A stretch of DNA of 40,040 bases from Bdellovibrionota bacterium (lineage in GTDB: Bacteria; Bdellovibrionota; UBA1018; CAUJDS01), in contig CAUJDS010000014.1 of the NCBI GenBank assembly GCA_963169695.1, positions 1 through 40,040 on the forward strand, written 5' to 3'. Every line of letters begins with the position of its first letter. Positions within the stretch are counted from its first letter, which is position 1. The notes under the pieces are model-generated. The model worked only from the letters and a program-made list of their open reading frames with translations. It searched no databases and was not told where the DNA came from. Position numbers and translations under genes: made by a program. Of this stretch, positions 10,862-15,850 are shown piece after piece.

Positions 10862-10873
10862 GGCACTCCGCTT
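10862..10873 (+). repeat. 12-bp direct repeat, left copy, flanking the four-helix-bundle pair
   Basis: GGCACTCCGCTT occurs here, overlapping the stop codon of the left four-helix-bundle gene, and again in the same orientation at 11563-11574, just past the right gene. Similarity continues weakly for about 7 more bases (17 of 19 positions need not be exact; C, G, G and G are shared). The two copies bracket the inverted gene pair. Confidence 0.5.
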
Positions 10874-11168
10874 ACCGCGGAACGGTAAGTCGATACAGGC
10901 AAGCGCCTACGGTATCCGAGAGTTGAAATGCCACTTGCCGATCCAGAATCTGGAGAAGGGCTTGGGTCTCACGCAAGGATGCCAAGGCGATGGAGTAAAA
11001 CCGCCGCCGCTCTTTGGGAGTCGGCTTGGCAGATCCCTCTGCAAGATTCAGAACAACGCTGAGTGAAGCTCTCTGGAGTTGGTCTCTGATGTATGCCGGG
11101 GCTGGGATAGCCCGCACGACTTTGTAAAGGTCTAAGGCCAATTGGTAAGCACGAAAATTCTGCAACAT
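10872..11168 (-). CDS. four-helix-bundle protein (23S rRNA intervening-sequence protein family), left copy
   Basis: The 98-residue protein is mostly helical. Family features are the N-terminal 'FRAYQLALDLYKVVRAI', the 'RDQLQRASLSVVLNLAEGSA' block (the most conserved part of this family), 'RRFYSIALASLRETQALLQI' and a C-terminal 'GACLYRLT'. These small bundles were first found inside 23S rRNA intervening sequences and are structurally related to the Avd accessory protein of diversity-generating retroelements; the function of free-standing copies is not established. The ATG at 11168 is supported by AAAGGAG with short spacing, lying in the left arm of the large palindrome. It is divergent from a paralogue at 11247-11546; the two share the same blocks throughout and differ mainly in the first linker and the fourth helix. 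Confidence 0.82.
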   Translation of the reverse strand: MLQNFRAYQLALDLYKVVRAIPAPAYIRDQLQRASLSVVLNLAEGSAKPTPKERRRFYSIALASLRETQALLQILDRQVAFQLSDTVGACLYRLTVPR

Positions 11169-11246: not shown

Positions 11247-11546
11247 ATGAAGCAGTTCAGAACGTATCAACTGGCCTTAGACCTTTACCAAGCCTGCAAG
11301 GATCTCAAGATCCCGTACTACCTCAAGGACCAACTTCAGAGAGCGTCTTCGAGCATCGTGTTGAACTTAGCAGAAGGATCTGCCAAACCGACCCAGAAGG
11401 ACCGGATGAAGTTTTATGCCATCGCATTTGGTTCCACGCGTGAAGTCCAAGCCATCATTGCGATGGAGCCTGCCAAGCTTGCTGGCATCCATGATCTTGC
11501 GGATCATGTCGGAGCGTGTTTGTATAAGCTCACTCGTCCAGGATGA
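11247..11546 (+). CDS. four-helix-bundle protein (23S rRNA intervening-sequence protein family), right copy
   Basis: The 99-residue paralogue of the protein at 10872-11168 has the same blocks in order: 'FRTYQLALDLYQACKDL', 'KDQLQRASSSIVLNLAEGSA', 'FYAIAFGSTREVQAIIAM' and 'GACLYKLT'. The two are roughly half identical by eye, so the duplication is not recent, although the DNA between them is a near-perfect palindrome. The ATG at 11247 follows AAAGGAG (11233-11239) at the outer edge of the palindrome's right arm. Such proteins usually assemble as oligomeric bundles; a hetero-oligomer of the two products is possible but unproven. No reverse transcriptase, template repeat or rRNA gene is visible nearby to explain them as DGR or rRNA-insert components. 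Confidence 0.82.
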   Translation: MKQFRTYQLALDLYQACKDLKIPYYLKDQLQRASSSIVLNLAEGSAKPTQKDRMKFYAIAFGSTREVQAIIAMEPAKLAGIHDLADHVGACLYKLTRPG

Positions 11547-11760: not shown

Positions 11761-12768
11761 TCACCAATTAACGCCGAAACTAACCTGAAGGAGTCGATCT
11801 CGGTCGTTCATTCCTTCGTGAGCAGAATCTTTTTGCTCAAAAATTTCTGTCCAGGAGACTTCGCACGTAAATCGCGAATGTGCCCTATCTCCTAGTCGAA
11901 ATTCAGCCCCAAATTCCAACGATGAATCTCGATCCTGAAGGTCGAGGTATTCGTGGCAGTTCCATCTACCGTACAATGCGGCGCTAGGCAGCGTCTTTCC
12001 AATCCAGTCATTCTCCAAGCTGTGGAGTCGAAACTCAAGTTCAAGATCCGCAGTCGAATCCTGTGGCTGATCGGATCGTAGAGTCAATCCCGCTTCGGCT
12101 CGGCAGTCCAAGCATTGGGTGATATCCTTTCGGATTCCCTGTGCAAATCCGAGTTCCAGTCCTAAGCGATGGCGGTTGATTTGATTGTGGTCATAATTAT
12201 AGGTTCGAGGATCACTGGAATAAGAAACTGGCTCGACCCCTACCCGCTTATGGACTTGGTATTGAGCCCGTGTTCCACTCCAACTTTGGCTAGAGGACTC
12301 ATAGTTGATTCCCGCCATCCATTTTAGGTAACTTGCCTCTGCTCCTTTTTCCTCGGCCTGGTTACCCAAATCCCAGTTCTTGACTCTGCACTCGAGTCGC
12401 CAGTCTTCAAGGAAATTAATATTTCTTCTACCTATCTCGTCCTGATCCCAGGAACCAAGTGGTTGGCCATTGGCGTCTTTCCTGAAACCCGTATAAAAGC
12501 GGTTTTGGAGTTGAGTGTCCCATTCTTGTGCGGAATCTTCGGAGGCTTCCAAAGATTGAAATCGCATCGCATTCGAAAAGGTAAATCCCTGATCGTTTCC
12601 TCCCACAACGTCCGCATCATTGCGATGACTGATGTCGAATTCGCGCGCGGACTCCTTTTTCTGGGGTCTGCACTCCCAATCCTTTGTTGATTGGGACCAG
12701 GCCAAATTGGAACAGAAGGTCAACGGAACAAGTCCCACCCAAAAGAGCCAAAATCTTGTCACTTGCAA
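11761..12768 (-). CDS. hypothetical exported protein, probable outer-membrane beta-barrel
   Basis: I do not recognise a named family. The 335-residue product has a signal peptide (about residues 1-25, 'FWLFWVGLVPLTFCSNLAWS'). The rest shows alternating polar/aromatic strands such as 'HRLGLELGFAQGI', 'AEAGLTLRSDQP', 'DLELEFRLHSLEN', 'SSLEFGAEFRLGDR' and 'FTCEVSWTEIF', and it ends 'LLQVSFGVNW' with the terminal aromatic residue typical of outer-membrane barrels. Several Cys residues (for example C-L-D-C near 226) are unusual. The start is TTG at 12768 or, with better spacing from the GGGGGG tract, GTG at 12762. It is divergent from the sigma-like secreted protein with only about 110-135 nt between them, so the two may share control. 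Confidence 0.7.
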   Translation of the reverse strand: MQVTRFWLFWVGLVPLTFCSNLAWSQSTKDWECRPQKKESAREFDISHRNDADVVGGNDQGFTFSNAMRFQSLEASEDSAQEWDTQLQNRFYTGFRKDANGQPLGSWDQDEIGRRNINFLEDWRLECRVKNWDLGNQAEEKGAEASYLKWMAGINYESSSQSWSGTRAQYQVHKRVGVEPVSYSSDPRTYNYDHNQINRHRLGLELGFAQGIRKDITQCLDCRAEAGLTLRSDQPQDSTADLELEFRLHSLENDWIGKTLPSAALYGRWNCHEYLDLQDRDSSLEFGAEFRLGDRAHSRFTCEVSWTEIFEQKDSAHEGMNDRDRLLQVSFGVNW

Positions 12769-12902
12769 TCCCCCCGAATGAAAGTCTCGATATCATTTCG
12801 TTATATTATTTAATAAACAAGCCGCGTTGCGTAATGTGGTCAGCAGGCATCCCTTTCAAGGTTGGGGAATGTCGGATGGACTCCGATAATAAGAGCGAGA
12901 AG
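12769..12902. promoter_or_regulatory. AT-rich divergent intergenic region
   Basis: The stretch 12791-12820 is rich in A and T and holds TTATATTATTTAATAA, offering -10-like hexamers in both directions (TATATT at 12802-12807 on the plus strand). No convincing -35 box is visible. It must carry the promoters of both the exported barrel protein and the sigma-like protein. Confidence 0.35.
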
Positions 12903-15113
12903 ATGAAGCTTGGAATTTGGATTCTACTAGTATTGCTGCTTCCTGGAGTCACGCAAGGTTCGGAAAGCCCAGATCCGTTGGAGGCCAAGCTTTGCCCTGG
13001 GAGTCGCTTTGCTCCGAGAAAGGGTAGTCGTAAGATTTCCTTCCCCGAAGACTTGGATCCACGAGTCTTGAACGAAAGTGGAAAGCTAAGCCTAAAGCTC
13101 TCTAAGCAGTATCCACCGAGCCAATCAGATCTCAGGGACTATGCGGCTCGGATTCATGACTATGTTTTGGCTATTGCTCACCGCAATAGGCAATTGGCTG
13201 AAGACCTCGGAATCGAGCCTGAAGACCTTCATCAGGAAGCAATGAGATATTTGATGGAGCGCTTTCCTCAATGGCGAATCGAAAGGGGCAAGAGTTGGAG
13301 CAATTGGTTTCATACTGGGCATAAGCATTTCTATTACGATAAGAAAAGAGAACGAAGTGCCTTGCAATCGCGGAATCGATCAACGCCTTTTTCTCAAATA
13401 GGTTCGGGGACCATTGGTCGAAGCTTTGAAGATACCCTCCCGATGGACCGAGCTGCGGAGGGCGTGAACAGATTGGAATTTGAGGAGCTTTTAGGAAAAC
13501 TGAAGGGAATCCGGTTGTCACCAAAAGAAATCAAAGTCCTAAGGCATTTCTACGCGGACGAAATGAGCCCCAAAGACATTGCTGAGGCTGTTGGAAGTTC
13601 GGAAAGTGAGATTGCAAATTTCTTGAATACCTTCAAAGAGCATGTTGCCAATGGATCTATCTATCAAGGTGAGACAAGAAGACCAGAATTTTTGAAGTTG
13701 GCAAAATCAAACAGAAAATTCGGAAGAAATCCAACCCGGATTGAGTCGAAACAAGTTCCTTATGACGAAAGTGTTTTGGATTATTTTTATAAGAAATATG
13801 TGCTGGCTATTCCTGCCGAGAAACTAAGGTCCGATGAAGATAGAGAAATCAAGTGGTCCCAATACGAGCAGACCATCGTATCAAACATGTTGGCGCGCTA
13901 TCAGATCACCGACCTTCCAAAGGGCACTGATGAGGCACTTCAAACTCTATTTGGCGATAAAAGAATGCAGCTTTCCTCTCAGCAAATAGATGCTTGGATC
14001 CTGTCTGTCCAGGTAGGGAACTATGATGCAGCTCCTTCGGCTAAGAGTATTGGATCTTTTATTATGCATCGCGTGGCCTTTTTCAGTTTGGGGAAATGGG
14101 CACGGCCTTTGAAAATTCCTGGAAATGCAGTAACCAATGCGAACGTAAAAGTGGGAATTATTGAAAAAGCCTACCAGAGATTTTTGGCGCATCACAAAGA
14201 AAGAGAATCCCTTAGTCTTAGAAACTTGTTCTTTGTTGAAAACAAGGCAAATGGGAAAATCGACACTACGCCTCATCAAAAGGAGATATTCAATCAGTTT
14301 TTGGAAGAACTTCAACTTCAAATGACTAAGTTTTATTCGCAGGATGGTGAGTTGGTAGATATGGAATTCTTCTTGCCGCGCCCCATATCATCAACCATAA
14401 ATCCAAGTGAAGCAAGACGTAGAACCGCCATACTGTTGCGGCACTTTCTCTTGCAAGAATCAGCAGGCGCTATAGCAAAAAGAGAAGGAGTAACAAAAGA
14501 GCTTCCTAGACAGGCTATCCAAAAGGCAGATAAGCGAATGCATGAGTGGCTAGTTGCGAATGGAGACCATATTTCTGGCCCGATCGTAGACGCGAATCCA
14601 ATTGCCCAAGCTTTTTTTAAGAGAAACGCAAGAACGGAGTCCTTGAGTCCGGACGAGCTGCTTGCAGCGGAAGAGGCGCTGCGGGAAATGCCTCCTGATG
14701 TTCGAAATAGACTTGATGGTCTGCGTGGGAAATATTCTTCCGTAAGGAGTGAAGGATCTCTATTGTCCAAAAAACTTGATCCGCTCCGAGATCTCTACAA
14801 TGAGCATCTTTTTGCGATCTTGGCCTATCGAGCATTCCCCGACAAAACCTTCCCGTTTGAACCGAAGGAAGCCTATCCGTTGATTCGGCTCTGGCATTCG
14901 CGCGAGAAAGTAGGAACGCTCCCTACTGCCGCAGACTTTGTAGATGAATTAGAAGCGATTCAGGAAAAACTAAAGAAACTTGACGCGGAGGATGCAGAAA
15001 CGTATCGGCTTCTCTATCTGGAGTCGCTTACTTTTTCTCAGATTGTACCCAGGTACTCGATGGACGATCTTCGGCGAAAAAAGAAAAAGCTGATCAAAGC
15101 TATTTCTAACTAA
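12903..15113 (+). CDS. exported protein with multiple sigma-70-like segments (unknown function)
   Basis: The 736-residue protein opens with a textbook signal peptide ('MKLGIWILLVLLLPGVTQG', cleavage likely after residue 19). The body resembles sigma-70 factors more than once. Residues about 75-151 look like region 2 ('EPEDLHQEAMRYLMERF' resembles the 2.2 core-binding helix, then 'RGKSWSNWFHTGHKHFYY'). Residues about 190-248 look like region 4 ('LSPKEIKVLRHFYADEMS' then 'PKDIAEAVGSSESEIANFL'). A second unit follows: 'GSFIMHRVAFFSLGKWARPL' plus 'KIPGNAV' (about 384-410) resembles the region 2.4/3 junction, and residues 503-550 form another helix-turn-helix ('AGAIAKREGVTKELPRQAI'). A third region-4-like end lies at about 693-736. 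An alternative ATG at 12876 adds nine residues. A signal peptide on sigma-like domains is highly unusual. Function is unknown, and the fold assignment is by eye. Confidence 0.6.
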   Translation: MKLGIWILLVLLLPGVTQGSESPDPLEAKLCPGSRFAPRKGSRKISFPEDLDPRVLNESGKLSLKLSKQYPPSQSDLRDYAARIHDYVLAIAHRNRQLAEDLGIEPEDLHQEAMRYLMERFPQWRIERGKSWSNWFHTGHKHFYYDKKRERSALQSRNRSTPFSQIGSGTIGRSFEDTLPMDRAAEGVNRLEFEELLGKLKGIRLSPKEIKVLRHFYADEMSPKDIAEAVGSSESEIANFLNTFKEHVANGSIYQGETRRPEFLKLAKSNRKFGRNPTRIESKQVPYDESVLDYFYKKYVLAIPAEKLRSDEDREIKWSQYEQTIVSNMLARYQITDLPKGTDEALQTLFGDKRMQLSSQQIDAWILSVQVGNYDAAPSAKSIGSFIMHRVAFFSLGKWARPLKIPGNAVTNANVKVGIIEKAYQRFLAHHKERESLSLRNLFFVENKANGKIDTTPHQKEIFNQFLEELQLQMTKFYSQDGELVDMEFFLPRPISSTINPSEARRRTAILLRHFLLQESAGAIAKREGVTKELPRQAIQKADKRMHEWLVANGDHISGPIVDANPIAQAFFKRNARTESLSPDELLAAEEALREMPPDVRNRLDGLRGKYSSVRSEGSLLSKKLDPLRDLYNEHLFAILAYRAFPDKTFPFEPKEAYPLIRLWHSREKVGTLPTAADFVDELEAIQEKLKKLDAEDAETYRLLYLESLTFSQIVPRYSMDDLRRKKKKLIKAISN

Positions 15114-15850
15114 CTTCCTCTAGAGTCATCAAGATCAATGAAAGATCCTTCTGCAATAGAAAATGCATCCTGACCCTTTCGAAAGAGCTTTGCACCTCCG
15201 ACACCCTGGAGTTGTGCTTTTCCTTGATGAACGCGGAGGACTTCTCCTTCGTACATTGCCAAAATCGGACGTGAGTTCATCTCGTGATATTCTCTCAGAC
15301 GATCGTCTCGTGTTTCTCCACCATAAGGCACCAGCGTTCCATTCTGTTCATAATGGAGCTTGCCGTGAAAGTAATGCGGATTGATTTGCCAATCCAAAAA
15401 CCTCAGCGCCTCGAAACTCTTTGGTTCCACAATTGGCATATCATTGGTGGTGCAGATTGTGGCCCCTGCAAGATTAGATCCCGCACTAATGCCAATATAG
15501 AGCTTATGGTCTTTTTGAATTCTATTCTTTATTGATTCCAGTAAGTCTAATTCGTAGAGCTGATGAAGCAGTCGAAAGGTATTGCCGCCGCCCACATAGA
15601 CTGCTTCGGCATTTGCAATGGCACGCTTCGGATCCATTTCGCGGTGGATAGACCGCAGCTTGCAACCACCCACAAAGTCCATTCGTTCGATCGATGCAGC
15701 ATAACCGTCGTGATCTTGGAGAGCATAAGGAATAAATAGAACTTCGGGAATTTGGCTTAAGGCGAGTTTCAAAGCGGACTTCCATGCTTGTTGACGCTCT
15801 GGAGTGGAGAGGCCGCCGCTTCCCAATACAAGGTTTAACTGATTTTCCAT
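15110..15850 (-). CDS. pepE: peptidase E (alpha-aspartyl dipeptidase, family S51)
   Basis: The 246-residue cytoplasmic serine peptidase cleaves N-terminal aspartyl dipeptides. The fold and active site are recognisable: 'AEAVYVGGGNTFRLLHQL' (about 81-98), the nucleophile elbow 'IGISAGSNLAG' with the probable catalytic Ser122, 'TTNDMPIV', and 'INPHYFHGKL' with the conserved histidine region. Length is close to the 229 residues of Salmonella PepE. It starts inside the end of the LOG gene (16-nt overlap) and is the last gene of a PBP-LOG-pepE operon. Its stop overlaps that of the convergent sigma-like gene by 4 nt, leaving no room for a terminator. Confidence 0.9.
   Translation of the reverse strand: MENQLNLVLGSGGLSTPERQQAWKSALKLALSQIPEVLFIPYALQDHDGYAASIERMDFVGGCKLRSIHREMDPKRAIANAEAVYVGGGNTFRLLHQLYELDLLESIKNRIQKDHKLYIGISAGSNLAGATICTTNDMPIVEPKSFEALRFLDWQINPHYFHGKLHYEQNGTLVPYGGETRDDRLREYHEMNSRPILAMYEGEVLRVHQGKAQLQGVGGAKLFRKGQDAFSIAEGSFIDLDDSRGS

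Follow-up and report, generated by a model that had tools for sequence, protein, structure and literature searches.

What is a sigma-70-like protein doing with an export signal at its N-terminus? Sigma factors are the classic case of a protein whose work is confined to the producing cell's own cytoplasm. The question is raised by one open reading frame, here called P0001, in a stretch of 40,040 nucleotides (the window, meaning the whole stretch of DNA that was analysed) from an uncultured bacterium of the Bdellovibrionota, a phylum known for its bacterial predators. The source organism is the sole representative of its own family among the genomes searched; the closest relatives of a penicillin-binding protein encoded near P0001 come from MAGs labelled Oligoflexia, Bdellovibrionales, Bacteriovorax and Bacteriovoracaceae (50–61% identity).

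The P0001 frame runs for 745 codons without a stop and has two possible starts, ATG 12876 and ATG 12903 (Table 1). It is divergent from a gene on the opposite strand (11761–12768) and convergent with a gene for a protein of peptidase family S51 (15110–15850, minus strand). A promoter scan upstream of P0001 returned one promoter-like site, at 12778–12807, which is at chance level. Also in the window are two divergently transcribed paralogues (10872–11168, minus strand; 11247–11546, plus strand), which we take to resemble four-helix-bundle proteins of the 23S rRNA intervening sequence type.

Table 1. Position in the window of P0001 and of the segments recognized or predicted within it
Feature	Position	Strand	Basis or remark
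Open reading frame P0001, predicted exported sigma-70-like protein	12876–15113	+	745 aa; 736 aa from the ATG at 12903
Predicted Sec-type signal peptide MKLGIWILLVLLLPGVTQG	12903–12959	+	Sequence and hydropathy; cleavage placed by eye after G28 (745-aa numbering)
Post-signal Cys motif CPGSRFAPR, residues 40–48	12993–13019	+	
Sigma-70 region 2, residues 97–160	13164–13355	+	TIGR02937, Pfam r2 14.6 bits, alignment A2, AlphaFold model; 2.2 core EDLHQEA
Sigma-70 region 4, helix-turn-helix block 1, residues 213–257	13512–13646	+	TIGR02937, Pfam, PHROGs, ECF HMM, AlphaFold model
Weak region-4-like block 2, residues 505–561	14388–14558	+	ECF HMM, shuffle p 0.0045; phrog_3512
Weak region-4-like block 3, residues about 691–741	14946–15098	+	ECF HMM, shuffle p 0.002; TIGR02937 six-frame match

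The sigma-70 module of P0001

Profile searches and structure prediction identify residues 97–257 of P0001 as a real N-terminal sigma-70 module made up of regions 2 and 4. TIGR02937 matches residues 97–249 with 44.1 bits, above the cut-off of 42.9 that marks a member of the sigma-70 superfamily. The PHROGs profiles concur, and the Pfam scores all lie under their gathering scores (given in brackets): r2 14.6 (24), r4_2 22.1 (25.7) and r4 12.3 (24.1). In an AlphaFold model of residues 53–269, built from 22 sequences (pLDDT 75), regions 2 and 4 form separate helical domains. The PDB neighbours of this model, as found by Foldseek, are mostly sigma factors (sigma-28, SigH, sigma-E and SigK, with probabilities up to 1.0); the E values are above 1e-3 and the TM scores low, so that the model supports domain identity only, and these values are probably due to a different placement of the two domains. 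A model of residues 270–745, made without an alignment, was uninformative (pLDDT 36) and was discarded.

The original prediction had gone further, with at least three helix-turn-helix blocks of the region-4 type, two region-2-like blocks and, in the peptide ARPLKIPG, a likeness to the R-x-I-R-I-P start of region 3. A set of 15 ordinary ECF sigmas taken from related genomes gave us an HMM, which marks three places in P0001, every one of them on region 4 of the HMM: residues 213–257, 505–561 and 693–723. The first, which TIGR02937 also recognizes, was matched by none of 2000 shuffled sequences (p <0.0005); the other two are weak and nevertheless stand above their shuffles (p 0.0045 and 0.002, 2000 per segment). 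The three blocks had been preselected in the original prediction and were thus not picked from many, and the p-values support the region-4-like blocks, short of proof. Moreover, phrog_3512 ('sigma factor') matches residues 514–559, block 3 is the best stretch of P0001 for both TIGR03001 and PRK07122, and when the entire genome was scanned in all six frames, TIGR02937 matched the P0001 frame twice, once at block 3. By contrast, Pfam, TIGR02937, PHROGs and the ECF HMM gave no second region 2 at residues 384–410 and no region 3, and the proposals for that segment and for ARPLKIPG find no support here. What stands of the tandem layout once proposed is one full module of regions 2 and 4, with two weak region-4-like blocks behind it; repeated units of region 2 and region 4 were not found by these profiles.

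P0001 has regions 2 and 4 in common with the ECF (group IV) sigmas, such as E. coli sigma-E and M. tuberculosis SigH and SigK, and the model of its N-terminal module, like L172 (a protein described below), matches ECF structures in the PDB. ECF sigmas are cytoplasmic proteins of about 160–220 aa without a signal peptide; 'extracytoplasmic function' is a statement about the processes under their control and not about their own location. P0001 is unlike them in its length of 745 aa, in its signal peptide and in its extra region-4-like blocks.

Signal peptides on sigma-like proteins across the phylum

Read from ATG 12903, P0001 begins with MKLGIWILLVLLLPGVTQG, and SESPD follows the predicted cleavage point. 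The n-region is charged, the hydrophobic core spans 10 residues with a mean hydropathy of 3.1, and the residues at −3 and −1 are small. These are the features that our own heuristic takes as the mark of Sec export (charged n-region, hydrophobic core, small −3/−1), and in form the N-terminus would pass for a textbook Sec signal. A functional sigma factor should be cytoplasmic and free of any export signal, and in this respect P0001, judged by hydropathy and sequence, departs from one. The signal peptide that had been proposed from ATG 12903 was thus borne out, in sequence form and hydropathy alike.

The signal-peptide test is lenient, flagging about 30% of genes in a genome sample, so that single cases mean little and it is the set that counts. 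Applied to 29 RpoD proteins of the phylum, the same test gave no convincing signal peptide at any start (in one of them, L115, a borderline stretch was not accepted as such), and the ordinary ECF sigmas that were examined have none either.

The genome of P0001 encodes a complement of ordinary sigmas (RpoD, a FliA-like protein, an RpoH-like protein and one ECF; L007–L010). It also encodes three further sigma-70-like proteins with signal peptides: P0002, P0003 and P0005, which score 56.4, 33.9 and 24.5 bits with TIGR02937. P0002 and P0003 adjoin each other in an operon-like run (L105:8732–18493, minus strand) that may be one operon, and directly upstream of them are genes for proteins of 2054 and 724 aa with signal-like N-termini and without a Pfam match. 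Eight more such proteins come from five other genomes belonging to five other families: P0006 (512 aa), P0007 (356 aa) and L056 (267 aa) in G007, L172 (210 aa) in G187, L153 (656 aa) in G259, L158 (1280 aa) and L159 (341 aa) in G360, and L174 in G304, which came out of a phylum search that had L153 as its query. The set therefore numbers 12 proteins in six genomes (G000, G007, G187, G259, G304 and G360), each genome from a different family (f1, f3, f10, f14, f18 and f28). The survey took as its input weak and unusual sigma matches in genomes of the class, plus 15 genomes across the phylum; only selected matches were fetched, so 12 is a lower bound. Assembly chimeras are an unlikely source because two of the genomes, G187 and G259, are near-complete and consist of about 20 contigs. 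Recurrence within one genome and across the phylum strengthens the proposal that P0001 is sigma-derived and carries an export signal, which the analysis as a whole supports.

Weak sigma matches in relatives were set aside when they belonged to NarL-type response regulators, recombinases, LysR regulators or cytoplasmic r4 proteins, and L089 (signal peptide, 16.6 bits) was also left out of the 12. Kept outside the set as well is P0004 (L022:1240–2112, plus strand), a protein of 290 aa from the genome of P0001 in which a signal peptide is combined with DLRQEA, a region-2.2-like stretch. A family search with P0004 gave no significant match (10.9 bits); its sequence makes it a possible fifth exported sigma-like protein of that genome.

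The quality of the sigma domains varies across the set. P0006 is RpoD-like in what it retains: it exceeds the Pfam cut-offs for region 2 (53.1 bits), region 3 (30.7) and region 4 (55.2), and its sigma part, taken by itself, is 43–45% identical to most RpoD proteins of the phylum. Aligned to solved RpoD structures it keeps FSTY-TWWIRQ--TRS and TRER-RQI, and with them the equivalents of E. coli Q437 and T440, for the −10 element, and of R584, E585 and R588, for the −35 element (roles described in PMC2613000). It is unlike RpoD in having a signal peptide. L172 (r4_2 62.0 bits, TIGR02937 75.6 bits) matches E. coli sigma-E, L159 has Pfam regions 2 and 4 over the cut-off, and L153 reaches 58.5 bits for r4. 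Region 4 is clear to borderline in L153, L158, L159, L174 and P0007, and the region 2.2 core D-x-x-Q-[EQD] is retained in P0001, P0002, P0005, P0006 and L056.

L153 and L174, from different families, each carry a signal peptide, and the alignment of the two, which begins just past it, shows 34% identity over 303 aa. The members of the set are otherwise very dissimilar, so that either common descent as exported proteins or several separate recruitments could account for them; a global alignment of the set (A1) was too gappy for structure work. P0001 had no homologue in the class (58 genomes), in the phylum (369 genomes) or among phages, plasmids and viral contigs, nor any match among 84,980 species genomes when short exact peptides, which distant relatives would escape, served as the query. 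The matches that did arise were chance or ordinary ECF sigmas and were discarded, as were L002 and L004, where NtrC-type regulators lie in another frame or region and the resemblance is due to chance. As a protein, then, P0001 appears to be an orphan; the phenomenon of exported sigma-like proteins recurs.

A cysteine motif behind the signal peptide

The CPGSRFAPR that follows the signal peptide of P0001 is one residue longer than CPSSFGPR and CPGAFGPR, which are found in two other exported proteins of the same genome. A Cys lies no more than 40 residues past the signal peptide in 12 of 13 sigma-like exported proteins (P0004 being counted, for this purpose only, as the thirteenth), usually with a hydrophobic residue at +3/+4, as in SSVF, KTVF, AEVI, SEVF and QSVV. 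We compared this with a sample of about 0.3 Mb of stretches from the genome of P0001, which contains 88 signal-peptide proteins. Such a Cys is present in 29 of the 88, compared with 13% of control windows (p 1e-5), and 17 of the 29 are hydrophobic at +4, compared with 22% around other Cys residues (p 1.6e-4). The difference between the sigma set and the genome sample (12 of 13 versus 29 of 88) has a p-value of 6e-5, which is flattered because the motif was chosen after the sigma set had been viewed, and the two groups are not fully independent because the 88 include three members of the set; the comparison within the genome is less affected by that choice.

The motif is also carried by an FMO-like flavoprotein and by an alpha/beta hydrolase, among others, and we lean towards the view that it ties the sigma-like proteins to a general exported set. 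The flavoprotein, from the genome of P0001 (L149:9266–10819, minus strand, contig C73), is an FMO-like flavin monooxygenase by Pfam (110 bits) with a signal peptide followed by CPSSFGPR. Sec export is unusual for NADPH/FAD enzymes, and by sequence this protein represents a second cytoplasm-type fold with a predicted export signal in front. The Cys motif is a separate lead on protein sorting in the Bdellovibrionota.

Where the exported proteins might act

Our preferred reading, to which we give a probability of about 0.42, is that P0001 is a sigma-70-derived protein exported by Sec, that it is one of a scattered Bdellovibrionota set, and that it probably acts outside the producing cell, in prey. 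The export of the set is well supported by its N-terminal sequences; the site of action outside the producing cell is what we infer. P0001 would cross the inner membrane via Sec and then be released. NanoLuc needs no more than a Sec signal peptide to be released by B. bacteriovorus into the medium, where it appears in the supernatant, and a Bd0468-mCherry fusion is secreted into the bdelloplast (PMC12622784). Bd0468 and other Sec-secreted proteins of Bdellovibrio have a Sec signal peptide in common with the exported sigma set. Once outside, P0001 could act wherever RNA polymerase or bacterial DNA exists beyond the producer, most likely in a prey or host bacterium, where region 2.2 would bind core RNA polymerase, region 4 would bind DNA, and transcription would be redirected or blocked. 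Because its sigma domains are weak and it carries extra region-4-like blocks, P0001 would be a binder or blocker and would not start transcription as a genuine sigma does, an ability that P0006, and perhaps L172, seem to have. The case for action on the RNA polymerase or DNA of another bacterium comes from P0006, which keeps determinants of use only with RNA polymerase while its N-terminus would send it out.

A bolder form of the same reading has the exported sigmas entering another bacterium and binding its RNA polymerase, with P0006 and perhaps L172 reprogramming prey transcription and blockers of the P0001 type shutting it down; the Cys motif would then be the cargo mark of an undescribed delivery route. 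We know of no route by which exported sigma-like proteins pass from the periplasm to the prey cytoplasm, and we put this version forward as speculative, possible rather than probable.

The main rival accounts for the same facts with less novelty. The N-terminus might be an uncleaved anchor, and the sigma part might lie in, or return to, the cytoplasm and be freed by regulated proteolysis as a membrane-tethered latent sigma. The promoter-reading residues kept in P0006 would be expected of such a protein, and there is a precedent in pro-sigmaK of Bacillus subtilis, a sigma that is made with a membrane-associated N-terminal extension, is processed within the membrane and freed by the membrane protease SpoIVFB, and acts in its own cell. 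The exported set is unlike pro-sigmaK in that its N-termini look like cleavable Sec signals and are followed by the Cys motif of exported proteins. Indeed, most members show the cleaved-Sec pattern (K/R before the core, small −3/−1), which would leave the remainder of the protein outside, and the presence of the Cys motif on the non-sigma FMO-like protein and hydrolase argues weakly against a sigma-specific tether. We regard tethering as unlikely. Alternatively, the sigma-derived parts could have been exported simply as DNA- or protein-binding domains without any role in transcription, for example to hold DNA, be it extracellular or from prey, on the surface of the cell. Export alone would then suffice, with no need for a delivery route, and the weak sigma domains of P0001, P0003, P0005, P0007 and L056 fit this picture, as do the large non-sigma extensions of L153, L158 and L174. 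However, several members keep region 2.2, the contact with RNA polymerase, and the −10 and −35 determinants of P0006 would be superfluous for plain DNA binding, which leaves this alternative rather improbable in our estimation.

Two further explanations would remove the phenomenon or take P0001 out of it. If the real starts lay downstream, the products would be ordinary or decaying cytoplasmic sigmas and the signals would be chance or part of an upstream frame. Some in-frame alternatives do exist: P0002, with an ATG at residue 31, is the most serious case, and between signal and region 2 of P0001 the only alternative start codons are TTG. With 12 cases, the Cys motif in place almost throughout, two homologues (L153 and L174) that have both retained the signal peptide, and 29 RpoD controls that lack one, we consider such an artefact very unlikely. 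P0001 alone might still be a decaying ex-sigma gene that belongs to no functional set. It is an orphan even among the 369 genomes of the phylum and its blocks 2 and 3 are weak, but its 745-codon frame, its signal peptide and its Cys motif are all intact, and we give decay hardly any weight.

Action outside the producing cell, the reading that we prefer, would be a departure from what is known of sigma factors. In the open-access literature searched, which takes in few of the subscription journals, we found no report of a secreted or signal-peptide-bearing sigma factor, and none of a sigma factor among the Sec-secreted proteins of Bdellovibrio. A study of the RpoE-like sigmas of Bdellovibrio makes no mention of a signal peptide or of secretion (PMC3464611). 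As far as can be told, the exported sigma-like set is new; P0001 by itself would be a curiosity. Entry into prey would make its members transcription factors that pass from one bacterium to another; tethering in the membrane would make them a new kind of latent sigma.

Other sigma-like proteins of unusual architecture were also seen. In L065 (G049:C344), a frame of at least 870 aa that is cut by the contig end, LPSALVEPRAVAPPTKESRRAE repeats precede a sigma-like match of 56.3 bits, and no signal peptide was seen. L014, L087 and L088 combine a sigma-like N-terminus with a transmembrane segment and a C-terminal domain, and look like sigma/anti-sigma or membrane-tethered sigma fusions; L087 and L088 share the ending YRLIVQS. 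L053, L154 and L171, from three genomes, are small cytoplasmic proteins with a common TWE-YL motif, and their region-4-like blocks stand in tandem inside one protein or in adjacent genes.
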